From Bacteroidota bacterium (GTDB taxonomy: Bacteria > Bacteroidota > Bacteroidia > NS11-12g > UBA955), in contig JAEUUL010000001.1 in the NCBI GenBank assembly GCA_016787485.1, positions 62,001-126,000 on the forward strand: 64,000 nucleotides of DNA. Reading direction: 5' to 3'. This document shows, in pieces, positions 7,977 to 59,505 of this stretch. Positions within the stretch are counted from its first letter, which is position 1. Every line of letters begins with the position of its first letter. The notes under the pieces were generated by a model, which did not search any database, was not told the origin of the DNA, and saw only the letters and a program-made list of their open reading frames with translations. Both the position numbers and the translations under genes were made by a program.

Positions 7977-8084
7977 GGAAAGTGAATGAGTCTTAAGGCA
8001 ACGAAGCCAGTCATAATATAGATAATCTAAACTGTATCTTAGTATACATCTCAAGAAGGATAAAATACATATTTAATTACACAA

Positions 8085-30883: not shown

Positions 30884-30886
30884 AGC

Positions 30887-34802: not shown

Positions 34803-35060
34803 TTATTTTCTCAGTTTCACCAGTTTTTCGGTGTGCTGTATCATACCACCTGCAGATATCTCAAGGTGATAAGTGCCTTCTGGCAGAGTCGCGGTTTGCA
34901 AACTCAACTCGCTGGCGCCTGAGAGGGTACCGCTGTTGCGTTCAATCACCACACGGCCGGCAGCATCGAATACCTTTATGTTAACAGGCGCTGCCTGAAG
35001 CAGATCCAGCTGCACTTTCAACACATCGCTGAACGGATTGGGCAACACCTGCACAGAGCC
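34803..35060 (-). other. Type A T9SS C-terminal sorting domain of the giant protein
   Basis: The last about 85 residues contain 'VLPNPFSDVLKVQ', 'VNIKVFDAAGRVVI', 'LPEGTYHLEIS' and a lysine/arginine end, the classical sorting signal recognised at the outer membrane by the type IX secretion system. It is cleaved when the protein is attached or released. Confidence 0.9.
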
Positions 35061-38000
35061 TGCATTGACCATAACATGGCGGGTTTTCACGCCCCAGGTT
35101 GTCATACCTACACCAAATTGTCCGAATCCTGCAACTTTCAACCGTTCTGCATAGCCGCCTGCAACAATGCCGCCTATGTACTGACTTGCTGTAGGTGGCA
35201 ATTTCCAATCCACAGCATTGCTGCTGCCATTGTTACGGTTAAGTATGCTGAACTTGTTGTCCTCAAGGTTGAGTTCGAATGCATTGTCACCACTGAAATA
35301 AGTTCTGAGGTCAAAATCACCGGATGTAGGTGAGGCATTGCCGTTGATGTACCAAACTCCACCGTTGTTTACTCCGGTATAATAGGTACCACCTTCACTT
35401 ACAAACAAGCCGGCATCGGTTCCGGGTTTGGGTCCGAAGGAAGCGGAAATGTTGCTCACACCTGCGAGGTTATGGTTCTGTAAGCGGGCATTGTGTCCAA
35501 AGAAGGCGTCACCAACCGGGAAGTTGTAGACGCTGTCGTTGGTTTGGAAGCTACGCACAAGGATTCCATTCACCCATGACTGGGTAAAGTCCGTGTTGCC
35601 TGCACCCGCCGTGATGGAAGAAGCCAGACCATTGTTCACAAACAGGGTATCACCGGAGGTGCTGATCGTACCTTTAATCAGGTGAAGGTTTCCGGATACG
35701 TACACAGAACCATTGAGATCTGCTACGCCACCACCCTGTACCCACAGATTGCGAACTGCGAGTCTGTCTATGGTCGCATTCACATTGTTGTTCAGGCGCA
35801 GTGTTCCGTTTCCGTTAAAGCTACCCTTGCGGCTGAAGCTACCATACAGATCCAGTGTCATGTTGCTGTTCAGTCCCAGGGATGCTCCACTTTGCAGATC
35901 GATGTTATGGGCTTTGGCCAAACCGGCATAAATCACAGGCATGAATTTGGTGCCCGATGGGATGATCACATTCGTGGTCGCTGTGGGGATTCCACCGCAC
36001 CAGTTGTCTTCATCATGCCAGTTGTTGTTTTTAATACCCACCCAGGTACCGGTAGCATAAGGCAGTACAGTAATGTACTTGGCAAGACTGTTGCTGCTGA
36101 AGCACTGATTCTCTGTGCGCACATACACCAGTTGTGAAGTTGCCAATGTGGCATAGGCAGTATCACCGCTGCCAATCGAAGTGAGAACACCCGGCGTAAG
36201 GTATATATACCAGTTCCATTTCTCATTGCTCAACAGCTTGGGTCCGTTCAGCCAGAATTTCACTCGGGTTCCAGTGCAAACGGTATCATAATTTGAGAAG
36301 ATGGCTGTAGGACCGGCAGGGCGGCGAATTACATTCACCTTCATGCTTCGGCAAGAGCTCACGTTGCAATCCCCTTCAGCGCGTACATAGTAAGTAGTGG
36401 TATCTGTGGGAGATACAGTAAGCGTGAGGCCACGGTGCACCAATGTGCCACCACAGGCGTCTTTGTACCATGCCCATTCTGCACCTGTTCCCAGTTTGCC
36501 ACCGATAGGCTGCATACTCACACTGGCTCCCAGACACAAATCTGTAGTAGTAGGTGTTGGTTGAGAAGTGGTGGTGGAAATACCGGTGGGTGTAGTGCTG
36601 GTATCCTTTATAGATACAGTTACAGGTATACAAAGGGTTGAATTACAGGTGCCCTGGGCACGAACATAATAGGTAGTGGCTGTTGTGGGTGAAACATTCA
36701 CCGCGGCTCCCAGCTGAATAGGTGTTCCACCACAACTGCCCTGATACCAGTACCACAAAGCACCTGCTCCCAGTTTACCGCCAGCTACAGTCAATGTAGT
36801 GGTTTGTCCTGAGCAAATGGCTGTTGTGCCGGTTATTGCACCCGCAGGTTTAGAAGTATCATTCACGGTCACAATAACCCCAACACATGCGGTGGTGTTG
36901 CAGGTGCCTTCAGCACGAACGCTGTAAGAATAGGTTCCTGCAGTGGTGGGTGTTACGGTAAGTGTATTGCCGGTAGAAATAGCTGTACCTCCGCAATTGC
37001 CACTGTACCATTTCCATGCAGCACCAGCTCCAAGATTGCCTCCGTTCACTGTAAGCGTAGTGCTTTGTCCCAGACAGATGGTGGCGTTGCCCGAGATAGT
37101 AAGGGCAGGACGTGAAGAGTCACGCACATTCACCACCATGGTGCGGCAAAGGGTATTGTTACATGTGCCTTCGGCGCGCACATAGTAAGTGATGGTTGCA
37201 GCCGTTCCAGGGGTAACAGTTACTGTTGAACCCGTGCCAACCAAAGTTCCGCCGCAACTGCTTGTATACCATTTCCAGCTGGCACCTGCACCCAGGCTTC
37301 CGCCGTTTACAGTAAGCGTAGCTGGCTTACCCAGGCAGATGGTGTTTGTACCAAAGGTTGAAATGGCTGGTTTTGATGTATCACGAACAGTCAGCAAAGT
37401 GCTCACGCAACTGGTTTTGTTGCAGGTGCCTTCAGCCCTTGCATAGATGTTGTAGGTGCCGGCCTGTGCCATGTTCACCACAATGCTGCTGCCTGTACCC
37501 AGGAATGTACCACCGCAAGATCCGCGGTACCAGTTCCAGGTTGCACCCGCCGCCAGGCTGCCACCGCTTACACTCAGCGTTGTGCTCTGACCCAGACAAA
37601 CTGTGGTTGTGCCTGTAATTGAAGTAGCCGGACGGCTTGTATCGGTAACCGTAACATTCATGGATACGCATTTTGTGGTGTTACAAGTGCCTTCGGCCCG
37701 CACATAATATGTAATGGTACCTGCTGAAGTGGGTGATATGTTCAGAACAGGTCCTGTGCCGGCCAGGGTGCCACCGCAACTGCCTGTGTACCAGCGCCAG
37801 CTTCCGCCCACTCCCAGTTGTCCGCCATTTACAGACAAGGTGGTGGATTTGCCCAGACAGATGGTGCTCACACCATTGATCGAGTTTGCAGGAACAGATG
37901 TATCCTGAACGGTAATTGTTACACTGCGGCAAAGTGTTGTGTTGCAATTGCCTTCTGCACGCAGGTAATAGGTATAAACCCCTGCAAGAGACGGTTTGAC

Positions 38001-41000
38001 GGTAAGGCTGTTGCCTGTACCTTCCAAAGTAGCCCCGCAATTGCCAGAATACCATTTCCAGCTGGCTCCTGTTCCCAGACTGCCACCACTGGGGGTAAGC
38101 GTGCTGCTCTGGCCCAGACAAATGGTGGTGGTTCCGCTGATGGAAGTCGCAGGCCTTGAAGAATCCTGAACGGTAAGGGTTATACTGCGGCAGGCCGTGT
38201 TGTTGCATGTTCCTTCTGCGCGCAGCCAGTAAGTAATGGTACCAGCAGTGGTCGGTGCCACAGTGAGGGTGCTGCCAGTGCCCACATTTGTGCCACCACA
38301 GCTACCTGTATACCATCTCCAGCTGGCTCCTGTACCCAGACTGCCACCGTTTACAGAGAAAGTATTGCTCCTGCCCAGGCATATTGTTGTGTTGCCACTA
38401 ATGCTGGTTGCAGGTACAGATGTATCGCGCACCGTAACTACAACACTGCGGCATACTGTGCTATTGCAAGTGCCTACAGCACGAACAAAGTAGGTATAAG
38501 TACCACCGGGTTTGGGGCTAACAACAAGCGATGCACCGCTGCCCAGATTCGTGCCACCGCAGGAGCCACTGTACCAGAACCAGTTTGCACCGGTACCCAG
38601 ATTTCCACCAGTTACACTAAGCGTGGTGCTTTGACCTACACAAAGGGTTGTACTGGTTGCATTGGCAGTGGTTGCGGGGCGGGATGTGTCACGCACAGTA
38701 ATCGTATAGCTGCGGCAGATGGTACTGTTGCAAGTGCCTTCCGCACGGACATAGTAAGTATAGTTGCCTGCAACGGTTGGTGTCACTGAAAGGCTGCTTC
38801 CCGCGCCTGCTGCTGTGCCTCCGCAACTTCCCAGATACCATTTCCAGGTTGCTCCTGTGCCCAGACTACCTCCGGTGAGGCTTAAGGTTGTGCTTTGACC
38901 CAGACAGAAAGTGGTATTTGTTGCTGTTACAGAAGTTGCAGGTCTGCTGGTATCATTTACCGTTAATGTAAATACCACGCAGGGAGTAGTGTTACAACTG
39001 CCTTCAGCTCTCAGATAATAGGTTGTAGTTCCGGCAGTCTTTGGAGAAGCAGGGAAACTTGTACCAGTATATACCAGCGTGTTTCCGCAACTACCGGTAT
39101 ACCATTTCCAGCTGGCACCAGTGCCCAGACTGCCACCATTTGGTGTCAGTGTGCTGGTTTGGCCCAAACAGATAACTGATGTACCGTTAACCGATGTTGC
39201 GGCCCTTGAAGTATCGCGCACTGTTACAACTACACTGCGGCATACTGTTGTATTGCAACTTCCTTCGGCACGTACAAAGTATGTGGTGGTAACCGCCGGG
39301 GATACAGCCACTGTGCTGCCGGTTCCTGCTGCACTGCCTCCGCATGAGCCGCTGTACCATTTCCAACTTGCACCTGCACCCAGAGAACCGCCTGTTATTC
39401 CCAGATTCGTGGATTGTCCTGCACAAATAGTCGCATTGGAAACTGTAGCTGTAGCAGCTGGCAGTGAGGTATCATTTACCGTTATGGTTCTGCTCACGCA
39501 GGGGCTCATATGACAGCTGTTTTCAGCACGCAGATAATACGTTGTGGTTACAGCAGGACTTACCACCAGGCTTGAGCCCGTTCCTACAGGAGTTCCGCTA
39601 CAACTTGCACTATACCATTTCCAGCTTGCACCGGTACCTAAACTTCCACCGTTCGGACTCAAAGTTGTGCTTTGACCTTTACAGATAGTTCCGGCAGTTG
39701 CATTGATGCTTGTAGCTATAACAGAAGTATCATTTACTGTAATTGTGCGGCTTACGCAAGCAGTGTTATTGCAGGCGCCTTCTGCCCGCAGATAATAAGT
39801 GGTAGTAACTGAGGGGGAAACCGCAATGGATGAGCCCGTTCCGACCGAAGTCCCGCCGCAACTAGTACTATACCATTTCCAGCTTGCGCCGGTACCCAGA
39901 CTACCACCGTTGGGAGACAGTGTTGTGCTCTGACCTTTACAGATAGTGGTTGCTGTGGCATTGATGGCGTTGGCTGGTACAGAAGTATCCTGAACAGTAA
40001 TCGTACGACTCACACAGGCTGTTGTATTGCATGTGCCTTCTGCACGCAGATAGTATGTGGTTGTAACTGATGGGGAGACAGTTGCAGATGCACCAGTAGT
40101 AACCGGTGTACCGCCGCAACTTCCTGCAAACCACTTCCATACTCCTCCATTGCCCAAACTGCCTCCATTGGGTGTCAAAGTAGTGCTTTGACCTTTGCAG
40201 ATGGTAGCCGATGTGGCATTAACAGAGGTTGCAGGAACCGAGGTGTCCAGAACAGTTATTGTGCGGCTTACACAAAGCGTATTGTTGCAAGTGCCTTCTG
40301 CCCGCAGATAATAGGTGGTGGTGGCAGCCGGACTCACAGTCAGTGAAGTGCCTGCACCGGCAGCAGTTCCGCCACATGAAGAAGTATACCATTTCCAGCT
40401 GGCTCCTGTACCCAGGCTACCGCCGCTAACACTCAACGTAGAATTTCTGCCTTTGCATATAGTGGTGGCTGTTGCATTAATTGACGTGGCAGGCACGGAT
40501 GTATCACGGACTGTAATGGCAATGCTGGCGCAGGTGGTGATGTTACATGCGCCTTCCGCACGAACAAAATAATTTGCACTGCTGCCAGGCATTATGCTCA
40601 CACTTGCACCTGTGCCTATTGCAGTGCCACCGCAACTGCCACGATACCATTTCCAGGAAGCCCCTGTTCCCAGAGTGCCACCGTTTACAGAAAGGGTAAT
40701 TCCCTGACCCAGACAAATGGTTGTTGCTGTGGCTGTGATGCCCGTAGCCGGCACAGATGTGTCCTGAACAGTAATGGTTTTGCTCAAACATACTGTGTTG
40801 TTGCAGGTACCTTCTGCACGCAAATAATACGTGGTTGTAGCAACCGGATTCACAGTCAAAGTATTGCTTGTACCAATCGGATTTCCGCCGCATACCCCTT
40901 CATACCAATACCATCCTGCACCATGTCCGAGTTTGCCACCCGAGAAGGAAAGTGTTGTGCTTTGACCTTTACAAATGGTAGCAGCGGTTGCATTGATTGC

Positions 41001-44000
41001 CGATGCAGGAACTGAACTGTCGCGAACCGTAACAACCACTGTTTTGCACACGGTACTGTTACAGAATCCGTCAGCTCTACCATAATAGGTGTATGTACCT
41101 GCTTTAGGATAAATGGTAGCCGGACTACCCGTAGCAACAAATCCACTTCCACAACTGTTCTGATACCAGTTCCAGTTCGCCTGGTATCCCAGGTTTCCTC
41201 CGGATACACTTAAGGTGGTTGACTGACCCTCACAAATAGTGGTGGCAGTGGCCGATGCTGAAGTCGCAGGACTGGACGAATCGTACACTGTGATTGTATA
41301 GCTCCGGCAGATTGTATTGTTGCAGGTGCCCTCAGCCCGCACATAATATGTGTAGGTGCCCGCAAACGCTGGACTCACTGTGAGGCTGTCTCCCGGGCCA
41401 TAACCGGAACCTCCGCAGGATCCCAGATACCAGTACCAGCTGGCTCCTGAGCCCAGATGTCCGCCTACTGGATAAAGCGTGGTAGACTGCCCCAGACAAA
41501 TTTGCGTATTTGATACGGTAATATGATTGGCTGCTATACTGCTGTCACGGATAACAACAGATACAGATACACACGGGGTTGTATTGCAAATTCCCTCTGC
41601 ACGCACCCAATATGTTGTATTGGCAACCGGGTTAACAGAAATCGATGATCCACTGTCAATCAGCGTACCACCGCAGCTTCCGGTGTACCATTTCCATTTG
41701 GCTCCGGTTCCCAGTGCACCACCGCTTACGCTAAGGGTCGTACCTGCACCGTTGCAAATAATGGTGTTACCTGAAATGCCTGAAGCTTTTACTGAACTGT
41801 CTCTTACAGTTACCACTGCAGAAACACAATTGGTATTGCCGCAGGCATCTTCACCCCGAACATAATAGGTGGTGGTGCTGGCAGGTGATACGGTTATACT
41901 GGTACCGCTGCCTTCAAAAGTACCACCGCAACTTCCGCTGTACCAATCCCAGGCACCGCCGGCTCCGAGGGTTCCGCCAGTCAGCGTAAGGGTAGCTGTT
42001 CCTCCTGCGCAGATTACCGCAGGGCTTGCACTTGCAGAGGATGGTGTGGTGCTGGTGGTGCGCAGTTTGATAAACTTCACTGCACATGGGGTGGTATTAC
42101 ATACTCCCTCAGCGCGAACGTAATAATTTGTAGAGGCTGAAACCGCGAAAGTAATGCTGGTGCCGCTGCCCATTGCGGTTCCACCGCAACTTCCTTCATA
42201 CCATTTCCAGGAAGCACCGGTTCCCAGACTTCCGCCACTCAGACTCAGTGTGGTATTCACTCCCAAACATCCGCTGTCAAGCGTTGCTGATACAAATGTG
42301 GCAGCGTTGCTGGTGTCTTTTACTCCAATCAGCTTGCTTACGCAGGGGGTTGTGTTACATGTACCTTCCGCACGAACCCAGTATGTTGTAGGAGCACCGG
42401 GAGTAATGATTAATGTTGAACCGCTGCCTGCCAGTGTGCCTCCGCAACTTGCAGTGTACCATTTCCAGCTGGCTCCGGCACCCAGTGAACCTCCGTTTAC
42501 ACTCAGTGTTGCATTTGCATTGCGACACACTGAATCAGCCGTTGTGGTGACAGAGGTCGCTGCAACGCTTGTATCATTCACAGTAATGGTGCGGCTTACG
42601 CAGATGGTGTTGTTACAGGTACCTTCTGCACGCAGATAATAGGTGGTTGTCACTGTGGGGCTCACTGTAATGCTGGTTCCTGTGCCTGCTGCAGTACCTC
42701 CGCAACTTGCAGTGTACCATTTCCAGCTGGCTCCGGTACCCAGACTGCCTCCGCTGAAGCTCAGCGTGGTGCTCTGACCTTTGCATATGGTGCTGGCAGT
42801 GGCATTCAGTGATGTGGCAGGTACGGATGTATCCTGCACTGTGATTGTCCTGCTTACACACAGCGTTGTGTTGCAGGTGCCTTCCGCACGCAGATAATAG
42901 GTGGTTGTCGCTGTGGGGCTCACGGTAAGGCTGTTGCCTGTGCCCGCTGCAGTGCCTCCGCAACTTGCAGTGTACCATTTCCAGCTGGCTCCGGTGCCCA
43001 GACTGCCTCCGCTTGCACTCAGAGTCGTGCTCTGGCCCTTACAGATGGTAGATGCTGTAGCGTTGATAGCTGTTGCAGCCACAGATGTATCCTGAACTGT
43101 GATGGTGCGGCTTACGCAGATGGTATTGTTGCATGTGCCTTCCGCACGCAGGTAATAGGTGGTTGTCGCTGTGGGGCTAACTGTAATGCTGGTTCCTGTG
43201 CCTGCTGCAGTACCTCCGCAACTTGCAGTGTACCATTTCCAGCTGCCTCCGTGTCCAAGACTACCGCCGCTGAAGCTCAGTGTGGTGCTTTGGCCTTTGC
43301 AGATGGTGCTGGCCGTAGCATTCAGTGCGGTTGCAGGTACCGAAGTGTCTCTCACTGTGATTACCATGTTTGCACAAGTGGTGGTATTGCAGGTGCCTTC
43401 CGCACGCACATAGTAATTGTCTGTAATTGTCGGACTGATGGTTATGCTGGTGCCGGTTCCAACAGCGATTCCGCCACAGGTATTTTTATACCATTTCCAG
43501 CTGGCTCCGGTGCCCAGACTGCCGCCACCTACACTCAGTGTGGTGGACACGCCTTTGCAGAATACCGTACCCGCTGTTGAACTGATGCCTCCGGCGGGTA
43601 CTGAAGTATCCTGAACCGTAATGGTACGGCTTACACAAATGGTATTGTTGCAGGTGCCTTCCGCACGCAGGTAGTAAGTCGTTGTTGCAGTGGGGTTCAC
43701 CGCAATGCTGGTGCCCGTGCCCGCTGCGGTGCCTCCGCAACTGCCGCTGTACCATTTCCAACTGGCTCCGGTGCCCAGGCTGCCGCCGCTGAAGCTCAGC
43801 GTGGTGCTCTGACCTTTGCAGATGGTGCTGGCAGTGGCATTCAGAGATGTGGCAGGTACGGATGTATCCTGCACTGTGATTGTCCTGCTTACGCACAGAG
43901 TTGTGTTGCAGGTGCCTTCCGCACGCAAATAATAGGTGGTTGTCGCTGTGGGGCTCACGGTAATGCTGTTGCCTGTGCCCGCGGCAGTACCTCCGCAACT

Positions 44001-53000: not shown

Positions 53001-56000
53001 TGAGGGTGTGACTTTTATACGCAGCGCTTTGCTGTTGATTTCACCTGCTTTGGGATTGTTGGTTTGCTGGGTAAGAACCACCGTAGCGGTGCCAGTAGAG
53101 CCGGCAGTGAATGCATCTTCATAACTGCCTATATCCGGTGTGGTGGTGCTGCGATTGGTACCTGTAACATCCTGAGCAGCTATTGCCACGTAGTTGCCCC
53201 CGTTTTCAATGGCAGAAGCCACGCTGGTACTGCCTTTGAGGAATACTGAAGATGCAGGATTTAGAGACTGGAAGCTGATATCTTCACTCTTGCTGCCAGC
53301 TTCCTTGCCCAGTTTCAGGGAATCAATCATTACACACAAGCTGGTTACACTGGTACTGCTGTCTCTGTACATGGCATATCCGGTGCCTGTGGGGGTGTAG
53401 ATAATGTTTTTATTAGAAGCCAGGGCATGTGAGTTTTTAAAGCGGGTAGCCCTGTGGAACGCGATGGTCTTACCACTGGAACCGGGTACTGTTTTATTGA
53501 TAAGGATATTGTTGCGCAGGTCCGTAATGGGGTTGCGGGCAACAAACAAGGCTGCACTGCTGTGGAATGCGGGTTTGGTTAAGCCATTGTCAAGTAATAC
53601 GGTGTTATGGTAAATCTGATTTGTAAATCCGGTAACATTTCCGGCAAACTGCATTCCATATACATTGAATGCATTCACACCGGGGTCGGCAGTACCCAAT
53701 CTGGGTGCGGCTATATCATATATCAGGTTATTGTAAACAGTAGATGCATTGCCTGCACTATAGATACCATATGCATTGCCATTGGTAGACCAGTTGGAAA
53801 GGTCGGCAATCCTATTGTTGTAAATTCTCAATGGAGTGGCGGTGCCACCGTTGAATATGCCAGCCACGGAAACGGAATTGACGGTATTTATTCCGGCAGC
53901 AACATTGTTAATGTTGTTGTTGTAAACAAACTTGCGGTTACCCGAGGTGAGATAAATTCCATAGACCAGTCCCAGTGTACTGGAATCATTACTGATGGTA
54001 TTGTCGCTTATATAGGCAGAATCACCGGAGAGATTATAGATGCCATACAAAGTACCCCCTGTGCGGATTTTATCCAGGGTGTTGCCCTGTATCCATACAT
54101 CAGCATTGGTGCTTACCTGATTCTGTATTGCCGTTAGAGGCCGTGCAATAAATATACTGCTGGCCTGTACATTGCGGAATGTGTTGTTCAGCACATAGTC
54201 CCGGCTGTTGGCTGACGGGCTGCCAGCATTGTAATACAGCGTTGCCTGGGTTGAGGACAATGGGTATGTGATGTCCAATGTGTCAATTACATTATTCGCA
54301 AAATAACTCAGGTTGGAACTGTTGTTCATGTAGTACCCGTAAATGGTGCTGTTTACCTGAACCACATTGTTCCGGATGGCATTGTTATACATGGAATCAT
54401 AGGCTCCTGTATTGGCCGAGGCCTGAAAGATTGCATAAAACAAACTTGAATTCAATGTATGGAATGGTTTGTAACAATCCCGTACTGTATTGCCACGCAC
54501 GGATACTGTTCCGGTACCTGACGGATTGAAATAGATCCCATACATGGCGCCAGACGAAGGCAAACTTTTCAGTGAAACAAGGTTGCCATGAATTTTCAGA
54601 TTGCTGTTGGGTGAGCTGTTAATATAAATACCATTGATCTGGTTTTGGGCAAAGGGGTACGAACCAGTGGCATTGATCACCCGGTTGTTGGCAATCACAT
54701 GATCTCCTGTTTGCGAGGTGGTATAAATGCCGGTGAGCACACCAGCCATAGGACCACCGAAATTGGCTATGTCATTGCCGCGTATAACGTTGTTGCGGTC
54801 CATGAGGGTATAGGGAGAACCTACACTTATACCTATCAATGTTATAGGGGTACCTCCGCAATTGCGGATTGTGTTGTTCTCAAAGCGGTTGTAGCTGTTG
54901 GTTCCGTTGGTATCAAAAGGCGTGTACATGGTGCCAATCGTGTCATACATATTGCCGCCCATATAAATACCTTTAGAGCCAGCAAGGAAATTGGTGGATC
55001 CATCCTGCCGGTTGCCTTCGAACATGGTGATGTTGCAGTTCTGAATGTTTACACCTTTCACCCCATTGCTGCTCCAGCGTTTGAAGAGACCGTATCCATA
55101 TTCAGCCGCATCTACTGTATTGGTATTGTTGTCTTTTATGTCAATTCGGTCGAAAGTGATATAATCCATACCACTTACGGTTACCACACCATCCAGAGGC
55201 ACACCTGCTGTGGCAAAAATGGGAGAATTGCCACCCATGTTGGCATTCAGCACAGGGTTTGCGCCGCTACCGGATTTCTGTATGGTGAGTGTACGGGTAG
55301 GTGTGGTATAGGTTGCTCCGCAGGTATTGTTGGCACGAATCAATATGCCACCGGGACTTGCAGGAACAACTTCTGAATGGTTGGCGGCCACGTTAAAGGT
55401 TACCGAAGCAGAAATTCCCCTTGTATTGAATGCGTTCACGGCATCTGCCAATGTGGCAAAAGGAGTCCCGGGAATGCTGTAAGTGCCACTCAGGGCGCCC
55501 TGCACGGTCATTCCACCACTTGCACTGCCGGGGGTGAGAATTCCGCCATTGTAATAAATGGTATCCAGGGAGGCGTCTTCAATGTTTCCGGCGGCGGCAG
55601 TGCACTTCAAATCATACACAACCCAGAAATACTGGGTTCCTGTAAATAACGGACGGGATACATTCACTGCAAAACTTCCGCTGGGATTATTCACCGTGCT
55701 CAGCAAGGTAGCGGTCGTAAAGTTGAGTGCAGAACTGCTGCCTGTGGCATATATCCTGGCCTGTGAAATATCGGAAGCACTTGTGCTTCCTGTGGTACTG
55801 AACACAAGCCTGGAAATACTGTCTGGACAATTGCGGTTGAAACCCATGGTTACCGATGCTCTCAGTGCAATCTGGTCTTTTGCCCCGGGGCCGGTATGCA
55901 GGGTGGGGTGAGCCACTGCAGCTGTAACAGTGTTGCTGATGGAATTGGGCGAATAACCATCTTCAAAAGCTCCAATATCGGGTGTGGTGTTGCTACGTGC

Positions 56001-59000
56001 GGCAGAATCAAAGTCAAATTCAAAACCGCTGATAACCTGTGCATTGTTCTCTGCAAAAGTGGGTGTTGAGAGGGAAGGATGCAGGTAACTGGAGCTGGTT
56101 GGATTCGTGCTGATAAAATCCATTCTCTCTGTATACGAGTTTGTATCTCTGGGAGAAACCAATGCCTGATACTGGCACCAGGTCTGAAGGTTATTGGTCA
56201 CATCAAAATACAGAATATTCCGAGGACTTGGCATTCCAGCATACAGGATATTGTTGTTGCTGGTGGTCGTCCATTGGCTCAAGGGCGTACCCGATGTGGT
56301 TGTGCCCCGCGCAATGGCAATTGTTTTGCCGGTGTATGTGACATTCGATGTAGGCGAACTTTCGTTGATGATTAAGTTATTGCGGACATCTATATTGTAA
56401 CCACTGGTTACGGTATTCTGATATATGCCGGCTGTAATGTTGGCCCCGTTACCATTGTTGGTTACGTTGTTCAGATAAACCGTGTTGTAATAAATATTGG
56501 TGGTTGTTACTGAGGTTGTCAATATGCCGGCAATCATTACCGCATTCGCATTGGATGATGCGCCGGAAGTAGCAAACAGTCCCCCCACCAGGTTGTTGTG
56601 GATATTTGCTGTGGTACCAGCCGCGCAATAAATGCCTACCAATTGGGTTCCTGTGGTCGTAAAATTCGACAACAAATACAATTCACCGATTTTGTTGCGG
56701 TGTATTTGCACCGTCGGAGAACTGCTGGCATGGTATATACCGTATGAAGTGGTACTGAAGTTGATGATGTTGCGAATGGTGTTTTTGTAAACCTGCCAAC
56801 TGCTGCCGGTGCCCGTTGCACTGTATCCATAGATACCGTAAAATGTTCCGTTGACTGTGTCATTGTATATCTCGTTGTGCGACACAATATTGTTAAGCCC
56901 GCTGAGACTGTAGACACCATAAAAGGTCCCAGCCCTGTTGTCATGCACTTTATTGTACTGCATCTTTCTGGAATGCCCTGCTGCTGTATTGCAATACATG
57001 GGGTAGAAAGTACCAAATGTGCGGTTGTAACGGTACAGGTTGGCAATCAGATTTTCATTTCCTGAAGTAGGGCTGCCCAGGTTATAATACCCGTACCAGG
57101 TTCCGGACGACAGGTTCTGGTTCTTCTCTATCAGGTTGTTGGCATAATACACGTTGGTACTGGTGGAACTGTTATAGAAAAAATAGGCAGTTCCACTGTG
57201 GTACCAAAGGTTATTGGCCAATGTGTTGTTCGTAATGGAATCACTTGTTGCTGTGGAAGCATGGTAAAACAGATATGTTGTTCCTGATACTGTGCCATAG
57301 GTAGCTGTAGCCAACAGGCTGTTCACCCAGCTGTTATTGCGAACCTTAATATTTCCGGTGGCTCCATTGTATAATCCATACAGTGTTCCTGTAGACATCT
57401 GCCGGAAGGTAAATGTATTGCCAATGTAATTTGCATTGATTGAGGTTCCCGATATGAACATACCATAAGTTGCACCCGAGCTCCGCATGGTAATGTTGAC
57501 CACATTGTTGGTATACTGAACCGGAACGGTGGTGGTCGTCAATGTGGAATAAATACCATACGTTGTGGAAGTATGCTGCACATCCAATATCACCGTGTTG
57601 TTGTTCACAATCAGGTTTGCATTGGCTACGTTCATATTGAACGGATAGATTCCATAGGTTAATCCTGTCGTAGACACACCTCCGTTCTCCATATTCGCCA
57701 CGCGGTTACCGGTGATGATCATGTTCAACTGGTACTGCGTAACGATACCATTTACTGTAGTTGTTGATCCACCCCCAAATGCACTGATGTAATTGGAAAT
57801 GATGGTATTTCCTGTTCCGTAGTAGGTTGTAGTAGTGCTACCCAATATACCGATACCGGAAACCACATTCTGTATGGTATCCTGAAAGAACTGACAAAAA
57901 CTGTTGATACCCGTTGCATTGGTAGGCGTGACAGCGGTTCCGCTGGTGGCACTGTGCTGTCCCATCCAGATTCCGTAGTTGCCGTTGGTGGCAGTATTGG
58001 CGCGGTTCAGAATAACTGTACAGTTGCGGATCGTGTCGTAACGGCATCCATCAGTTGCACTGGTGGTGGACAGGTGAAACCCGAACTCAGCCATGGTGGT
58101 ACTGGTGGTATTCGTAGAACTTTCACGCAATTCCAACCCATCAATGGTAATATAATCTGCTCCGTTTATCTTGAATATTGCATCCTGCCCGCCTGTTGCC
58201 ACTGTAGAAGTTTGGGTGCCTGCACCTGCATTGATCCTGGGTTTATTGCCAACCCCAATTCTGCGAAAGACTATAGGATTAGAGGCAGTTCCGGTTTTGG
58301 TAAGCAGGATACCACCACCAGCTGCTGTTTCTGTGTGACCGGCCTGCACCAGCAGGGTCACCGGACCAGTTACAGTACCGCCGTTTAAGGCGGTGACAAA
58401 TGATGCCACAGTAGCATAACAACTGGAAGGAACCAGGTAGGCACCGGTGAAGTTTGTACCAGAAGCCACGGTGTAGCTGTAATTGCTGCCGCCGTTGTTG
58501 TTGATATTCAGCACAGCCATGTCGTGTGCATCCTGTCCGTTTGTGCCAATACTGGCTGTCAACTGAGCAGGTGTAAGGCTGGAAGTGTAAACATAATAAT
58601 ATACGGTTGTGCTGGCGGAGTAGCAAGGTATGGCGGCTTCACCTCTGGTGCCGTTCATGGCAACCTGCACCCAGCTGCTGCTGCTGAAGGTAGAGGAAGT
58701 GGAGTAACGCAAATACACGTATTCACCCGCTGCCGGAGCAGCACCAGTAGTCACCTGCACAAAACCTGCGTTGTTTTGATACACGGTAGACGGATTAAGG
58801 GTAACGGAGGAAATGGAAACCGGATTGAACGATGTTTCAAGTACTGCCAAATTCTCATTGGCCGGAGTTCCACTGGTACTTTTCTCCGAAATATTAAATG
58901 TATAGTACCTTCCGCTGGTCACTGCCGGAAGTGTGCCACTTACACCACCTGAACTGCTGTTCGTGGTTGCAGAGCCATAGCTTGGAGGCGAACCGGATGC

Positions 59001-59309
59001 CGGACCAATAAACTGGTTGAACGCGGGTATCATTACCTGCGATCCTGAACCGCTGACCGGTCTCCAGTTTGTGGTAAACGAAGGAGAACCCACGGAACCC
59101 GTTCCGAATTCCCAGGTTCTGCCAGCGGAACCTGAACTGCTTGCCTGAATGCGCACCTGCCGGAAAGTGCCATAGTCTGTAAGGGCACTTACTGATGCAC
59201 TGCCAGAGGCAGTCTGACTGTTCAATACGGTAGCCTGTCCTGAAAGATTCAGGATGTTGAGGGTGGCGGCAATAAACAGGCTGAGGGAGAGTTTGTAGTG
59301 GTTTGTCAT
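34803..59309 (-). CDS. Giant 8168-residue T9SS-secreted surface protein: beta-helix modules plus 39 Cys-rich Ig-like repeats
   Basis: One uninterrupted frame of 24.5 kb. Parts in order: signal peptide (MTNHYKLSLSLFIAATLNIL); a beta-rich N-terminal region to about residue 283; four parallel beta-helix modules (about 285-1120, 1277-2065, 2225-3005, 3160-4190), each opening with a 'Y.IP..Y.T...A...L..RG.SG.VTF.V..GH.E' segment and closing with 'TPDIG..E'; three intervening domains resembling the BNR-associated N-terminal domain ('LRI.VSTSG...FVLSTAGTTN..D...AK.Y'); an I-set-like Ig domain (about 4191-4287); 39 Ig-like repeats (4288-7667) and a degenerate fortieth; a 'W.....NW..G.IP....VIIPSG' domain; and a type A T9SS sorting domain (about 8085-8168). 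The beta-helix parts look like carbohydrate-binding or adhesive surfaces; no lyase active site is recognised. Expected role: a long disulfide-stiffened adhesin or gliding/biofilm filament. Function is inferred, not known. Confidence 0.93.
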   Translation of the reverse strand: MTNHYKLSLSLFIAATLNILNLSGQATVLNSQTASGSASVSALTDYGTFRQVRIQASSSGSAGRTWEFGTGSVGSPSFTTNWRPVSGSGSQVMIPAFNQFIGPASGSPPSYGSATTNSSSGGVSGTLPAVTSGRYYTFNISEKSTSGTPANENLAVLETSFNPVSISSVTLNPSTVYQNNAGFVQVTTGAAPAAGEYVYLRYSTSSTFSSSSWVQVAMNGTRGEAAIPCYSASTTVYYYVYTSSLTPAQLTASIGTNGQDAHDMAVLNINNNGGSNYSYTVASGTNFTGAYLVPSSCYATVASFVTALNGGTVTGPVTLLVQAGHTETAAGGGILLTKTGTASNPIVFRRIGVGNKPRINAGAGTQTSTVATGGQDAIFKINGADYITIDGLELRESSTNTTSTTMAEFGFHLSTTSATDGCRYDTIRNCTVILNRANTATNGNYGIWMGQHSATSGTAVTPTNATGINSFCQFFQDTIQNVVSGIGILGSTTTTYYGTGNTIISNYISAFGGGSTTTVNGIVTQYQLNMIITGNRVANMENGGVSTTGLTYGIYPFNMNVANANLIVNNNTVILDVQHTSTTYGIYSTLTTTTVPVQYTNNVVNITMRSSGATYGMFISGTSINANYIGNTFTFRQMSTGTLYGLYNGATGNIKVRNNSWVNSLLATATYGTVSGTTYLFYHASTATSDSITNNTLANNLWYHSGTAYFFYNSSTSTNVYYANNLIEKNQNLSSGTWYGYYNLGSPTSGNENLIANLYRYNRTFGTFYPMYCNTAAGHSRKMQYNKVHDNRAGTFYGVYSLSGLNNIVSHNEIYNDTVNGTFYGIYGYSATGTGSSWQVYKNTIRNIINFSTTSYGIYHASSSPTVQIHRNKIGELYLLSNFTTTGTQLVGIYCAAGTTANIHNNLVGGLFATSGASSNANAVMIAGILTTSVTTTNIYYNTVYLNNVTNNGNGANITAGIYQNTVTSGYNIDVRNNLIINESSPTSNVTYTGKTIAIARGTTTSGTPLSQWTTTSNNNILYAGMPSPRNILYFDVTNNLQTWCQYQALVSPRDTNSYTERMDFISTNPTSSSYLHPSLSTPTFAENNAQVISGFEFDFDSAARSNTTPDIGAFEDGYSPNSISNTVTAAVAHPTLHTGPGAKDQIALRASVTMGFNRNCPDSISRLVFSTTGSTSASDISQARIYATGSSSALNFTTATLLSTVNNPSGSFAVNVSRPLFTGTQYFWVVYDLKCTAAAGNIEDASLDTIYYNGGILTPGSASGGMTVQGALSGTYSIPGTPFATLADAVNAFNTRGISASVTFNVAANHSEVVPASPGGILIRANNTCGATYTTPTRTLTIQKSGSGANPVLNANMGGNSPIFATAGVPLDGVVTVSGMDYITFDRIDIKDNNTNTVDAAEYGYGLFKRWSSNGVKGVNIQNCNITMFEGNRQDGSTNFLAGSKGIYMGGNMYDTIGTMYTPFDTNGTNSYNRFENNTIRNCGGTPITLIGISVGSPYTLMDRNNVIRGNDIANFGGPMAGVLTGIYTTSQTGDHVIANNRVINATGSYPFAQNQINGIYINSSPNSNLKIHGNLVSLKSLPSSGAMYGIYFNPSGTGTVSVRGNTVRDCYKPFHTLNSSLFYAIFQASANTGAYDSMYNNAIRNNVVQVNSTIYGYYMNNSSNLSYFANNVIDTLDITYPLSSTQATLYYNAGSPSANSRDYVLNNTFRNVQASSIFIARPLTAIQNQVSTNADVWIQGNTLDKIRTGGTLYGIYNLSGDSAYISDNTISNDSSTLGLVYGIYLTSGNRKFVYNNNINNVAAGINTVNSVSVAGIFNGGTATPLRIYNNRIADLSNWSTNGNAYGIYSAGNASTVYNNLIYDIAAPRLGTADPGVNAFNVYGMQFAGNVTGFTNQIYHNTVLLDNGLTKPAFHSSAALFVARNPITDLRNNILINKTVPGSSGKTIAFHRATRFKNSHALASNKNIIYTPTGTGYAMYRDSSTSVTSLCVMIDSLKLGKEAGSKSEDISFQSLNPASSVFLKGSTSVASAIENGGNYVAIAAQDVTGTNRSTTTPDIGSYEDAFTAGSTGTATVVLTQQTNNPKAGEINSKALRIKVTPSTASGTTVTKFTLNTTGTTNPTRDISKARVFYTALDSNLNLQTAAQYGSDVANPNGSYTVSGNENLSCQKDYYFWLMYDVKCGALSTDVLDAEVSSVDYTGGSITPSTTNPTGTQSIATPSALAGSYGIPSAYPTLDSAIRDLNYKGLSSTVTFNIASTHTEQAPNNGYLIDVTGCWDTTSAGRKIIIKTAGGGRPVFYAQSNGNATPATTTSGTRLDGLFTVLGTDWITIDSLDMRDTNTIGNRRMEYMVGLFKKSATNGTRFVTVKNCAITASTLNNIAGSALFGAGSKAFYIGPSWYNDLGTELMPTDTFGLNSYNTFASNDVRNTYNPVWLEGYNGSLYTSDRMNTIRNNSLTYWGGSSARYHGIYADDQHNVQISGNYLNNVANGGSMGSGGGYGIYTEVSGNANATISGNTISIQTSNISTYPIYSASGGVVRILDNNIRDCKVQNFLGQTFAGIWLAAAPSSDTISGNAIAMDTLFGYGSIYGIYHQTNCPFEVIDNNRFDSVTSIAATSVSGYVTYGIYRSIAVNTGISRIANNIFRNYRALGSIPSYINSTSCYGVYDNVSTSVLHKRIITGNLHTGFFNSPTASSSFGGGMYIIGGDSTWVENNTTEDDTFTSMYGMRCDNQTYLSLRNNTVRNITLRGASGGTSYGILCLGQTTVDYSGNRVGNLTHTATGAGMMGIYAGSVGTLNMNNNVVANLEAKGASFSNSIVGIYLASTTAGQLQNVYHNSVYLNGSPGTVSTLFGSAALYSSSTAPTLDLRNNILINESNTSKGTAVGVWRNGTNALATMASTCNNNLIYAGTPSSGNLIFSDAGAVTAGTICDYINLLGPTRETGAVSEDVAFLSLSPNSSNFMHVDPSVATTVENGGGPIASVTKDIDGQTRSSSTPDLGADEGSFTPASSGTPSLAVTQVTGQTGRGANQHVLRIAVSTSGAGKALNISRFVLSTAGTTNVADLDKAKLYFTGSSSAFSTAVRFGDSVNNPNGRMVFNGTASACAGATVYFWLAYDVNCGSTLSNLIDGTCDTVTINSTNYTPSSPAPAGARSLVGPLNGTYGIPADYTTVNAAALDLNSRGVSGHVTFNVAAGHVESVPLGPGIVILNQNTCGDTTNINRQVIFKKSGSGSNPILYGAAGGSALPSTAGRALDGILTIAGTDWVTFDGFDMLDTNSLNPATMEYGVGLFKASRLNGTRNVTIKNCNIQLNRINSNFSGTYFGVGNTGMVIMPTLYNDPTNQVITTDTNGTNSYNSLLSNNISGVNIGIRAQGYNAPSPYALYDKGNNLGRASMGNSITNFGNLASSSTTYGVYQQYNTDITIGGNYIDPQANGGVRTIYQVMGIYNGSAVNAKVTVDSNTLRLRPNSTSTFYGIYTQIGGTGTINVTRNSLLDFASNLSLNVANYPIYIATTCNVVNVSNNNILNDTQYYSSTIYGIYAATSPTVSLTVNGNRIENFRNLYYAGSSMFVMYLNTGVNGTMSVQNNILKNISNGYYIYAIYDVSAQGTTKNISGNTLYNLSHNYSGAYIYAILTSGGTNAVMTINNNTLRKIVGDGQIYGIYEQSSSGLSKTFNGNTIDSLISNIAGYSIYGIYGFATTGTNMTYQNNTISNLWVQGSLYGIYDGSSVNSVKTFTGNQLNNLNVTNGSGYTLYGIYGSGTTGAKMYYTNNTLKNFNGLYYIYGIYNTPNAATDNYLVGNNLEGFKNTYASGTGYIYGLFTSAGTSGTNYIMNNNTLRRFYHNNAYGYIYGTYSNGTASVNQVVKTSGNTVDSFYFAGTGAGGQYIYGIFENNGGTPAKSVNGNKVSNLYLSSSATAGTIYGVYANLANATRPDSVCDNVIYTVSAPYTVYGIYSTSSAAWKYNNNKIGNLSTTGAGYQVYGIYSSGTDTTEYNNNIISNLKAPASTTLSYGIYNNGPSTFQHNSIYLSGTSSGTGFGMNGIYHSGTYSNIFRNNLIVNATTPTGSAISAALRRSSSANATLYNSNSGNNCYVGVGTNKYLFFDGTNSYSGYPFTAYTGAEGSSISYRPVFRDSTNPSVTNHLQIDTTTAANCALNGAGRVSSSPSVTADYWGESRMLSKPDIGADEFNVKPKITQNPVAQNVCPGVDVNFKGKASPAADYQWFKGSSALSNGGNISGATSDSLVLSSVSVSDTGDYRLRIINCNGIDTVYTTFAHLNVGTSSTIATSITASADTVCRGSAVTLTVNGGSLGVGSVWMWFRSGCGFGSGTYVGTGNSITVNPTISDSFFVRAKGICDSTGCVKKRIVVRDTSAPATSITGTSTINLGQSTSLTRNGGSLGAGANWYWYEGSCGGTLLNTGSNPFSYSPASIGTKTVYVRAQGTCNTTICRSIVITVNDTSAAPTGISGTNTFCLGGSTTLSVVGGSLGSGYSWKWYTGSCGGTAAGTGSSISITPTTAGATNYFVRAEGPGGNTVCASTTLTVRDTSVPASTAQANAYTVCQGVGTQIYLTGGSLGHGATWKWYSGSCGGTLEGSGSFINVVPSVTTTYYVRAEGTCNTTVCKTVTITVLPASTAPTSLSVTAGTICKGQSSTLSVNGGSLGSGASWNWYHGSCGGTFVGSGSSITVNPTTTTTYFVRAQGTCNTTSCASTTITVNDTSVPATAINATATTICKGQSTTLTPNGGSLGTGASWKWYTASCGGTAAGTGSSLIVSPTATTTYYLRAEGTCNTTICVSRTITVQDTSVPATSISGTTSICKGQSTTLSVNGGSLGTGAGWKWYTGSCGGSLFATGTSTLWIGTTPGTYNIFLRAEGTCNNTICRTVTLVVNDTSVPATGITGTTTICKGQSTTLSVSGGSIGGGTWKWYSGSCGGTAVGTGSSISVSPAGNTTYFVRAEGSCNTTTCVSTTVTVRDTSVPVNNITGNTTICLGQSNTFGISGGSLGHGATWEWYSGSCGGTGLGTGTSKTVIPASSGIFNYYVRAVGTCNTTVCKSIVLTVRDTSNQATGINATASTICKGQSTTLSASGGSLGTGASWKWYTTSCGGTAAGTGNSITVSPTATTTYYLRAEGTCNTTLCVSRTITVQDTSVPATSLNATASTICKGQSTTLSFSGGSLGTGASWKWYSGSCGGTAAGTGTSIAVNPTATTTYYLRAEGTCNNTICVSRTITVQDTSVPAGGISSTAGTVFCKGVSTTLSVGGGSLGTGASWKWYKNTCGGIAVGTGTSITISPTITDNYYVRAEGTCNTTTCANMVITVRDTSVPATALNATASTICKGQSTTLSFSGGSLGHGGSWKWYTASCGGTAAGTGTSITVSPTATTTYYLRAEGTCNNTICVSRTITVQDTSVAATAINATASTICKGQSTTLSASGGSLGTGASWKWYTASCGGTAAGTGNSLTVSPTATTTYYLRAEGTCNTTLCVSRTITVQDTSVPATSLNATASTICKGQSTTLSFSGGSLGTGASWKWYTASCGGTAAGTGTSITVSPTVTTTYYLRAEGTCNNTICVSRTITVNDTSVAATSVTTTADSVCRNANATLSVNGGSLGAGASWKWYTASCGGTLAGSGSTLIITPGAPTTYWVRAEGTCNTTPCVSKLIGVKDTSNAATFVSATLDSGCLGVNTTLSLSGGSLGTGASWKWYEGSCGGTAMGSGTSITFAVSASTNYYVRAEGVCNTTPCAVKFIKLRTTSTTPSSASASPAVICAGGTATLTLTGGTLGAGGAWDWYSGSCGGTFEGSGTSITVSPASTTTYYVRGEDACGNTNCVSAVVTVRDSSVKASGISGNTIICNGAGTTLSVSGGALGTGAKWKWYTGSCGGTLIDSGSSISVNPVANTTYWVRAEGICNTTPCVSVSVVIRDSSIAANHITVSNTQICLGQSTTLYPVGGHLGSGASWYWYLGSCGGSGYGPGDSLTVSPAFAGTYTYYVRAEGTCNNTICRSYTITVYDSSSPATSASATATTICEGQSTTLSVSGGNLGYQANWNWYQNSCGSGFVATGSPATIYPKAGTYTYYGRADGFCNSTVCKTVVVTVRDSSVPASAINATAATICKGQSTTLSFSGGKLGHGAGWYWYEGVCGGNPIGTSNTLTVNPVATTTYYLRAEGTCNNTVCLSKTITVQDTSVPATGITATATTICLGQGITLSVNGGTLGTGASWKWYRGSCGGTAIGTGASVSIMPGSSANYFVRAEGACNITTCASIAITVRDTSVPATSINATATTICKGRNSTLSVSGGSLGTGASWKWYTSSCGGTAAGAGTSLTVSPAATTTYYLRAEGTCNNTLCVSRTITVLDTSVPATSVNATSATICKGQSTTLTPNGGSLGNGGVWKWFAGSCGGTPVTTGASATVSPSVTTTYYLRAEGTCNTTACVSRTITVQDTSVPANAINATATTICKGQSTTLSPNGGSLGTGASWKWYSTSCGGTSVGTGSSIAVSPSVTTTYYLRAEGACNNTACVSRTITVNDTSVIATSINATAGTICKGQSTTLSPNGGSLGTGASWKWYSASCSGTPVGTGSSLVVSPAVTTTYYLRAENSCHMSPCVSRTITVNDTSLPAATATVSNATICAGQSTNLGITGGSLGAGASWKWYSGSCGGSAAGTGSTVAVSPAVTTTYFVRAEGSCNTTVCRSVVVTVRDTSRAATSVNGTSVICLGQTSTLTPNGGSLGTGASWKWYTGSCGNTLVYTGTSFPASPKTAGTTTYYLRAEGSCNTTPCVVFTLTVNDTSRPATSVTATNTTFCLGQSTTLSLTGGSLGTGATWKWYLGSCGGTAAGAGSSLSVTPTVAGNYTYYVRAEGTCNSTICRSYTITVRDTSRPATTANATSTTLCVGQSTTLSVTGGNLGTGANWFWYSGSCGGTNLGSGASLVVSPKPGGTYTYFVRAVGTCNSTVCRSVVVTVRDTSVPATSISGNTTICLGRSNTFSVNGGSLGTGASWRWYTGSCGGTNVGTGSTLTVAPTTAGTITYWLRAEGTCNNTACRSITLTVQDSSRPATSISGTTTICLGQSSTLTPSGGSLGTGASWKWYSGNCGATLEGTGNSLTVKPSLAGVYTYYLRAEGNCNTTLCRSVTITVQDTSVPANSINGVSTICLGKSTTLSVNGGQLGVGGSWRWYTGSCGGTLAGTGPVLNISPTSAGTITYYVRAEGTCNTTKCVSMNVTVTDTSRPATSITGTTTVCLGQSTTLSVSGGSLAAGATWNWYRGSCGGTFLGTGSSIVVNMAQAGTYNIYARAEGTCNKTSCVSTLLTVRDTSKPAISTFGTNTICLGKPATLTVNGGSLGAGASWKWYTSSCGGTLVGTGSTVTVTPGTAATITYYVRAEGTCNNTLCRTMVVNVRDSSRPALTISGNATICLGQSTTLTVNGGNLGAGAAWKWYSGNCGGTAISTGNTLTVTPTTAGTYSYSVRAEGTCNTTACVGVIVTVNDTSKPAGAITGTTAICSGQTTTLTVAGGKLGAGALWYWYQGSCGGTPIQLGAAVNVSPTTATTYYVRAQGTCNSTLCIPVTVSIKDTSTTPTGISTTTSQPTPTTTDLCLGASVSMQPIGGKLGTGAEWAWYKDACGGTLVHRGLTLTVSPTDTTTYYVRAEGDCNVSSCRSMKVNVIRRPAGPTAIFSNYDTVCTGTRVKFWLNGPKLLSNEKWNWYIYLTPGVLTSIGSGDTAYATLATSQLVYVRTENQCFSSNSLAKYITVLPYATGTWVGIKNNNWHDEDNWCGGIPTATTNVIIPSGTKFMPVIYAGLAKAHNIDLQSGASLGLNSNMTLDLYGSFSRKGSFNGNGTLRLNNNVNATIDRLAVRNLWVQGGGVADLNGSVYVSGNLHLIKGTISTSGDTLFVNNGLASSITAGAGNTDFTQSWVNGILVRSFQTNDSVYNFPVGDAFFGHNARLQNHNLAGVSNISASFGPKPGTDAGLFVSEGGTYYTGVNNGGVWYINGNASPTSGDFDLRTYFSGDNAFELNLEDNKFSILNRNNGSSNAVDWKLPPTASQYIGGIVAGGYAERLKVAGFGQFGVGMTTWGVKTRHVMVNAGSVQVLPNPFSDVLKVQLDLLQAAPVNIKVFDAAGRVVIERNSGTLSGASELSLQTATLPEGTYHLEISAGGMIQHTEKLVKLRK
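36309..46448 (-). repeat. Tandem array of 39 Ig-like repeats, about 258 bp each
   Basis: I counted 39 full units by the marker 'C.G.S.TL....GG.LG.GA.W.WY.GSCGGT...G......P....TYY.RAEG.CN.T.C.....V.V.DTS.PA'. Each unit has four cysteines: one in the first strand ('IC.GQ'), one in 'SCGG' and two in 'GTCNTTxC'. Unit 2 has Asn-Leu in place of the first cysteine and unit 3 lacks the third. A degenerate fortieth unit follows (residues 7668 to about 7755). All units are in phase, with lengths of 84-93 residues. Confidence 0.95.
42558..44108 (-). repeat. Recently duplicated two-unit block inside the Ig array
   Basis: Units 10-11 (44108-43593) and units 14-15 (43073-42558) are near-identical 516-bp blocks offset by 1035 bp. 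Comparing units 10 and 14 by eye I found about a dozen differences in 258 positions. Unit 13 is also close to units 11 and 15. Confidence 0.85.
46740..58455 (-). other. Four parallel beta-helix modules with three BNR-associated-like spacers
   Basis: Each module consists of many short 'N.I.NN.....G.IYGIY' rungs, the pattern of right-handed parallel beta-helices of the pectin-lyase type. Spacers of about 140 residues lie near 55945-55530, 53110-52680 and 50285-49860. The fourth module is the longest (about 1030 residues against 780-830 for the others). Confidence 0.85.
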
Positions 59310-59366: not shown

Positions 59367-59397
59367 CAAACATATTCTATGCATCTGTCATTTCCAA
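59367..59397 (-). promoter_or_regulatory. Promoter of the giant surface-protein gene (TTG-n20-TATGTTTG)
   Basis: On the minus strand TTG (59397-59395) is followed after 20 nt by TATGTTTG (59374-59367), an exact TAnnTTTG match, leaving a leader of about 55 nt. Just downstream of the -7 element, TTGAC occurs twice 11 bp apart (TTGAC-GAATTA-TTGAC), one helical turn, a possible operator. A related TTTGACAATTCGACA sequence is seen farther upstream on the other strand. Confidence 0.55.
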
Positions 59398-59477: not shown

Positions 59478-59505
59478 AAAGCCGGGGCGTATACACCCCG
59501 GCTTT
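59478..59505 (-). terminator. Rho-independent terminator of the pheT-rny operon
   Basis: A perfect 10-bp stem AAAGCCGGGG / CCCCGGCTTT with an 8-nt loop, followed on the minus strand by TTTATTC after the stem's own T-run, 24 nt past the rny stop. Confidence 0.92.

Follow-up and report, generated by a model that had tools for sequence, protein, structure and literature searches.

A giant type IX-secreted surface protein of Bacteroidota with a putative cysteine staple between neighbouring immunoglobulin-like domains

Giant surface proteins that are exported by the type IX secretion system (T9SS) and carry arrays of immunoglobulin-like (Ig) domains are already known. The nearest described system to the locus analysed here is GhpA of Aureispira sp. 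CCB-QB1 (PDB 9FLP-9FLY and 9G8B), a T9SS-exported single monomer of 5,898 residues that spans its filament (PMC11205867, PMC13319060). This grappling hook protein is, like the protein reported below, a giant single chain, and it carries many Ig-like domains of the ICxG...GCxS type in a long tandem that is homologous to the stalk found here. SprB of Flavobacterium johnsoniae is likewise a giant T9SS-exported surface adhesin; it is a cargo of type B, for which SprF acts as the carrier (PMC12635249). Three further families bear on the comparison: Ig_7 (PF19081, CHU_C associated), of which the stalk repeats are members; the parallel beta-helix proteins, including PL6 lyases, AlgE epimerases and phage tailspikes, whose fold is shared by the head modules; and PF14873 (BNR_assoc_N), the carbohydrate-binding family CBM93, which is found together with glycosidases and has been shown to bind sialoglycans in NanH of T. 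forsythia (PMC9472817). What is new at this locus is the proposed cysteine staple between neighbouring Ig domains. We found no description of inter-domain disulfides in bacterial Ig arrays in the open-access literature, and subscription papers may have one.

The window, by which we mean the whole 64-kb stretch of DNA analysed, from a freshwater-type Bacteroidota genome, contains a gene for a protein of 8168 residues that sits between rny and metH, all on the same strand, with pheT next beyond (Table 1). An initial annotation had described this gene as a single 24.5-kb frame with its own promoter and terminator. The frame reads from ATG to stop as 8168 amino acids with 0 internal stops, and promoter-like and terminator-like sequences do flank the gene, with the rny terminator before it; in the candidate promoter, TTG stands 20 nt upstream of TATGTTTG (read by eye). 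The search for RNA families and tRNAs returned none within the window. An assembly artefact is unlikely because the longest exact direct repeat within the gene is 66 bp, because purifying selection on the Ig repeats is strong, with dN/dS at roughly 0.03-0.12 for the nearest repeat pairs, and because other genomes also encode giants of the same order. We considered array collapse or misassembly and, given the length of that longest repeat, regarded a wrong frame as unlikely, while the true copy number of the Ig repeats may differ slightly from that assembled. The region of helix module 4 (47000-49000) has a GC content of 0.42, against 0.45-0.55 in the rest of the gene, and its low GC may reflect a separate origin or a recent expansion.

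Table 1. Features of the giant gene and its flanks, with residue ranges of the protein and positions in the window.
Feature	Position	Strand	Basis
Complete giant gene, 8168 aa	34803..59309	-	One open frame, ATG to stop, without internal stop
Terminator of upstream rny gene, 12-bp stem	59478..59505	-	Sequence
Putative Bacteroidota-type promoter	59367..59397	-	TATGTTTG at 59367-59374, TTG at 59395-59397; consensus match only
Putative signal peptide, residues 1-25	59235..59309	-	Hydrophobic N-terminus ending LSGQA, judged by eye
N-terminal domain, residues 26-285, kept in relatives	58455..59234	-	Alignment, profile, cysteine co-presence
Beta-helix module 1, residues 289-1124	55938..58445	-	N-cap profile; similarity to module 2
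CBM93-type spacer 1, residues 1125-1274	55488..55937	-	PF14873; profile
Beta-helix module 2, residues 1275-2070	53100..55487	-	AlphaFold2 model with spacer; parallel beta-helix in PDB
CBM93-type spacer 2, residues 2071-2226	52632..53099	-	PF14873; Foldseek to Bacteroidota sialidases
Beta-helix module 3, residues 2227-3010	50280..52631	-	N-cap profile; module similarity
CBM93-type spacer 3, residues 3011-3161	49827..50279	-	PF14873, best stretch
Beta-helix module 4, residues 3162-4189	46743..49826	-	Ends with conserved NCALN cysteine 4154
I-set type Ig domain, residues 4190-4290	46440..46742	-	Weak PF07679 match; cysteine map
39 four-cysteine Ig_7 repeats, residues 4291-7660	36330..46439	-	PF19081; own profile; AlphaFold2 of repeats 5-7
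Sole junction of the array without a predicted staple, residues 4445-4474	45888..45977	-	Repeat 2 without C1, repeat 3 without C3
Degenerate 40th Ig domain, residues 7661-7749	36063..36329	-	C1 and C3 only
Conserved C-terminal region, residues 7750-8090, NWCGG cysteine 7771	35040..36062	-	Relatives
T9SS type A sorting domain, residues 8091-8168	34806..35039	-	PF18962, TIGR04183
Intrinsic-terminator-like stem-loop and T run past stop codon	34751..34788	-	Read by eye; pattern scan without it

The domain layout given in the initial annotation was also borne out. A Pfam scan of the whole protein, a check suggested there, returned three PF14873 stretches, 40 PF19081 stretches, a weak I-set match and a T9SS sorting domain, and thereby recovered the spacers, the Ig array and the sorting signal. 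The four beta-helix modules begin at residues 289, 1275, 2227 and 3162 according to the N-cap profile, and each of the three spacer domains follows one of the first three helices and belongs to PF14873 (62.5 bits against a cut-off of 25, in 3 stretches). What had been listed simply as an Ig domain ahead of the array is of the I-set type by its weak PF07679 match and carries cysteines resembling C1 and C3 of the stalk repeats, at positions 4205 and 4265. The 39-40 cysteine-rich repeats resolve into 39 of a four-cysteine class, 37 of them with all four cysteines (C1 to C4), and a degenerate two-cysteine 40th. The sorting domain is of type A and lies above both the Pfam and NCBIfam cut-offs (PF18962, 36.3 bits against 27; TIGR04183, 31.2 against 23). 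The same genome encodes T9SS machinery (SprA, 2227.6 bits; GldM, 301 bits) and holds 125 sorting-domain matches.

As the genome has sprA and gldM, its giant T9SS cargo could be an adhesin that moves along the cell surface during gliding, as SprB does; the initial annotation had named SprB as an example of the large adhesins that T9SS exports, and had inferred a very long rod. A T9SS-exported rod of this length, in which beta-helices form the head and Ig domains rich in cysteine the stalk, is supported. We regard a gliding role as very unlikely: the sorting domain is of type A where that of SprB is of type B, the Pfam scan found no SprB repeats (PF13573) at E <= 0.1, and the neighbouring genes are rny, pheT and metH, with no SprF carrier next door.

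Other loci in the window and the genome also drew attention. A GH16-family protein with a T9SS sorting domain lies at 8000-11318 in a stretch of low GC content (0.34 against about 0.48) that is possibly acquired DNA, and genes of the MbnP and MauG types adjoin at 30116-31999, a pair known from metal-binding tryptophan-kynurenine chemistry. The genome also encodes a second giant T9SS cargo of 3916 residues without an Ig array (L030; contig C41, 225574-237321).

The claim of beta-helices was checked by structure prediction of one module. The AlphaFold2 model of module 2 and its spacer is a parallel beta-helix (pLDDT 83.9) whose closest folds in the PDB are PL6 alginate lyases, AlgE epimerases, GH136 and GH110 enzymes and phage tailspikes, with VIA Z scores of up to 24.0 for the module (24.0 to the Sf6 tailspike, 20-23 to PL6 lyases and 23 to AlgE epimerases). 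Such folds, together with the company that CBM93 keeps with glycosidases (PMC9472817), would also suit an array of polysaccharide lyases, epimerases or hydrolases displayed on the stalk and positioned by the CBM93 domains. We consider enzymatic helices unlikely, because the Pfam and NCBIfam scans placed no enzyme family model on them at E 0.1, and because the modules, 31-36% alike, show conserved Asn and Gly positions of the sort expected in helix coils and no visible catalytic set. The only Pfam match on the helices was the generic PF13229, below threshold, and the PL6-type family signature was not found. Spacer 2 was matched by Foldseek to the N-terminal part of Bacteroidota sialidases (rmsd 3-4 A). 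Since the spacers belong to a carbohydrate-binding family, the N-terminal half of the protein is a plausible glycan-binding head, whose CBM93-type and helix modules we assign from their family and fold.

The stalk repeats match PF19081 in 40 stretches (1187 bits), and their cysteines are spaced 27/29-32/5 in nearly all 39 repeats. Prediction of a three-repeat segment (repeats 5-7) with AlphaFold2, which was likewise meant to check the earlier domain claim, gave a confident Ig fold (pLDDT 96.9), and comparison with the PDB agrees. GhpA is the best match of the stalk in the PDB (repeat profile E 0.003; Foldseek E 1e-10; VIA Z 12.4), and its domains in 9FLW, 9FLU and 9FLY carry the C1 and C3 positions. 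Eukaryotic Ig tandems also match (titin I67-I69, Z 11.2, rmsd 3.4 over 239 residues), and PDB searches with single Ig repeats gave chance antibody matches only. The plain form of the stalk repeat, an Ig_7 domain with two cysteines, occurs as a run in a 909-residue protein of the same genome (L029; contig C38, 76619-79345).

We searched 97 related genomes for such giants, and followed the Ig repeat across 70 genomes of the family and 395 of the class. Giants with the helix module occur within the family in three genomes, here labelled G001 (6090 aa), G042 (5778 aa) and G018 (5719 aa, its frame cut by the contig end inside its sorting domain), pieces of such giants were found in G014 and G023, and giants of the same order with helices only are present in G060 and G062. 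A search for homologues with the same module order, also suggested by the initial annotation, showed that G001, G018 and G042 share it: an N-terminal domain, three helices with two PF14873 spacers, an I-set domain, 20-29 Ig domains and a sorting domain. The earlier statement that no described system has exactly this pairing of modules therefore needs revision, as at least three more genomes of the family keep the layout, and among described systems GhpA, not only SprB, comes nearest. Directly upstream of the G018 giant lies a paralogue (L020/L021; contig C4, 17301-25187) of 2629 residues that has 22 Ig repeats and no helices and keeps the same N- and C-terminal regions. The C-terminal region is present in relatives of genus g8 and absent in g2. 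The four-cysteine Ig repeat occurs in 8 of the 70 family genomes and 61 of the 395 class genomes.

Scans of named genomes with one helix module gave no match, and with the N-terminal domain they gave seven uncultured MAGs, several of them from the series RE-26jul17. Related N-terminal domains were seen in 20 of 395 phylum genomes. A repeat architecture of another kind accompanies this domain in the MAG SZAS-60 (L064; 9812-20677), so the N-terminal domain is a mobile unit.

To read the pairing of the cysteines, we compared their losses, relocations and caps in about 390 Ig repeats, from arrays of the family and arrays across the class. Of the 247 family repeats, 230 have all four cysteines. Our starting assumption was a C1-C3 bond inside each domain, and we dropped it on the pattern of losses. 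Where an internal repeat lacks C1, the next lacks C3, as in repeats 2/3 of the giant, repeats 10/11 of G001 and G014, and domains 1/2 of two further arrays (L104 and L109); the rule holds for every internal loss of C1 that has no replacement cysteine. Among adjacent pairs, C1 of one repeat and C3 of the next are both present in 294 cases, both absent in 5 and mixed in 4. On inspection, one of the mixed pairs (G007 C24) proved to be a one-residue misalignment and three to be relocated cysteines; in L077, L093 and L094, C1 is lost and a cysteine is gained at the strand G end of the same domain. Fisher's p on the raw counts, with the shifted case corrected, is 2.7e-9, a value that overstates independence because some losses share descent (G001/G014, probably L104/L109, L077/L093/L094); losses are few, and the distinct lineages number about four.

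The ends of the arrays were compared in the same way. Last domains, where no partner follows, lack C1 in G001, G014, L104, L109, L107 and L073. Where an array follows a signal peptide or N-terminal domain, an extra cap cysteine stands ahead of repeat 1 in G007, the G018 paralogue, G026 and G034, and a lead-in cap cysteine is also present in the unrelated proteins L039, L044, L055 and L056. The first domain of L041 has C1 and lacks C3, and the array starts of L045, L051, L086, L090 and L100 have no recognisable cap cysteine.

Mean-field direct coupling analysis of 340 adjacent repeat pairs (effective number 246) ranked C1(n)-C3(n+1) first of 6152 inter-domain pairs, with a score of 2.78 that falls to about 0 when partners are shuffled; the shuffled maxima were 1.13-1.19. 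The other strong inter-domain couplings lead from the strand G end to the B-C loop of the domain that follows; in the first run, linker and F-G loop were coupled as well. These couplings would fit a head-to-tail Ig stack with the same contact as the staple. DSSP of the repeats 5-7 model lists isolated bridge residues in the linkers and in the F-G loop of the next domain, which by our own reading of the listing pair as 2/66, 81/152 and 167/239.

These data bear directly on the more conventional possibility of an Ig stalk in which each domain closes its own C1-C3 and C2-C4 bonds. Two-cysteine Ig_7 domains keep exactly C1 and C3, and both cysteines are present in 346 of 365 domains, as such a stalk would have it. 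We nevertheless hold it to be quite improbable: within one domain, only one of C1 and C3 is present in 17 cases and both are missing in 2, both of these first domains, whereas next-domain partners disappear jointly and inspection left no exception unexplained, and C1-C3 coupling ranks 140 inside the domain against 1 between domains. Evolutionary support for a bond from C1 of one Ig domain to C3 of the next is strong, and we judge it probable that covalent staples of this kind join the domains of tandem Ig_7-type arrays in Bacteroidota surface proteins, with overlapping loops that would leave the fibre doubly connected. The disulfide-bonded stalk of the initial annotation is upheld as a cysteine-rich Ig rod, in which the main bonds appear, from losses and coupling, to run from C1(n) to C3(n+1) and not just inside the domains.

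The other two cysteines behave differently. C2 and C4 are lost together in the same repeat, their coupling ranks second within the domain, and single four-cysteine domains occur in otherwise different proteins; judging from the alignments, C2 and C4 appear to pair within the same repeat. A C2(n)-C4(n+1) bond was rejected on the joint losses within one repeat and on the existence of single four-cysteine domains. The textbook Ig register seems to put C2 and C4 far apart, at odds with an intradomain bond, and their joint loss despite this apparent distance could instead reflect pairing between parallel chains. That would suit a grappling hook of the GhpA kind, a heptameric assembly in GhpA itself, in which several copies lie in register as a multi-stranded rod with a capture tip that catches other cells, and in which C2-C4 bonds might link neighbouring copies. 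Both profile and Foldseek put GhpA first among PDB matches of the stalk, and GhpA is a T9SS-exported single monomer spanning its filament. Against this, the sequence search of residues 1-4199 with all PDB chains, full-length GhpA included, gave nothing at E <= 1, at a level where remote similarity is possible, and single four-cysteine domains in different proteins are more easily explained by an intradomain bond, so that we think a hook of this kind improbable.

One more inter-domain bond is suggested near the N-terminus, where Cys229 (IPC) of the N-terminal domain and Cys297 (SSC) of helix 1 are both present in 8 of the 8 proteins that have both domains; the two proteins without helix 1 lack the IPC cysteine.

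Taken as a whole, we read the protein, with a probability of roughly 0.6, as a T9SS type A surface adhesin that is anchored to the cell, binds glycan and has a stapled stalk resistant to nicking and stretching; the surface anchoring, orientation, ligand and mechanical role, and the bonds themselves, are what we infer. Export would be followed by removal of the sorting domain and attachment of the C-terminus to the cell surface. With about 40 domains of about 4 nm each, the Ig stalk would then hold the N-terminal half some 150 nm or more off the cell, where the four beta-helices alternating with three CBM93-type domains would form a binding head, most likely for polysaccharide.

In the stalk so proposed, C1 sits at the far end of its domain, in the turn that precedes strand B, and would bond with the C3 that the next domain carries at its near end, in the F-G loop, and C2 and C4 would bond each other inside the same repeat. 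The chain of staples would run from cysteine 4154 of helix 4 through the I-set domain and the Ig array to cysteine 7771 of the C-terminal region. C1 is column 8 and C3 column 64 of the 81-column repeat, and each staple would close a loop from column 8 of one repeat to column 64 of the next, with the following loop opening at column 8 of that next repeat. Because consecutive loops overlap, every position of the stalk would lie in at least one closed loop, and a single backbone cut would leave the stalk joined except at residues 4445-4474, every other peptide bond being inside a loop. A pull on a linker likewise could not part the fibre. This resistance to nicks follows from the pairing by arithmetic rather than from experiment, and the mechanical benefit is a presumed one. 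The gap between repeats 2 and 3, where one staple would have been lost in the giant, may be a planned weak point or chance decay.

Giant surface fibres face proteases and mechanical load outside the cell, and a second covalent tie per bead, if the pairing is right, would guard them against single nicks and the stretching of linkers. The motif would be a simple, repeated one that evolution can lengthen or shorten at will, and the giant would be an extreme case of it, a series of about 40 staples that is capped at either end and lacks one junction close to the head. The same cysteine positions occur in arrays across the Bacteroidia-level sample, and C1 and C3 also in GhpA, for which cryo-EM maps are public. 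The staple could also serve as a rule by which to read the cysteines of many Bacteroidota surface proteins that lack annotation, and by which to construct tough protein fibres.

Set against the described systems, the protein combines known parts in a different way. SprB is a type B cargo with an SprF carrier and SprB repeats, and neither the carrier (next door) nor the repeats were found here. The three spacers match the sugar-binding N-termini of sialidases such as NanH, but here three CBM93 copies serve as spacers and there is no sialidase domain; the head modules share their fold with PL6 lyases, AlgE epimerases and tailspikes at about 8-16% identity, with no enzymatic signature found. Unlike GhpA, in which the C2/C4 pair is not seen in the parts compared, the giant has this second pair in its stalk and an N-terminal half, of four beta-helices and three CBM93 domains, without sequence match in GhpA. 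In comparison with plain Ig_7 arrays, the stalk is of a four-cysteine subclass and forms an unusually long run of 39 repeats, probably held together by a staple from each domain to the next.
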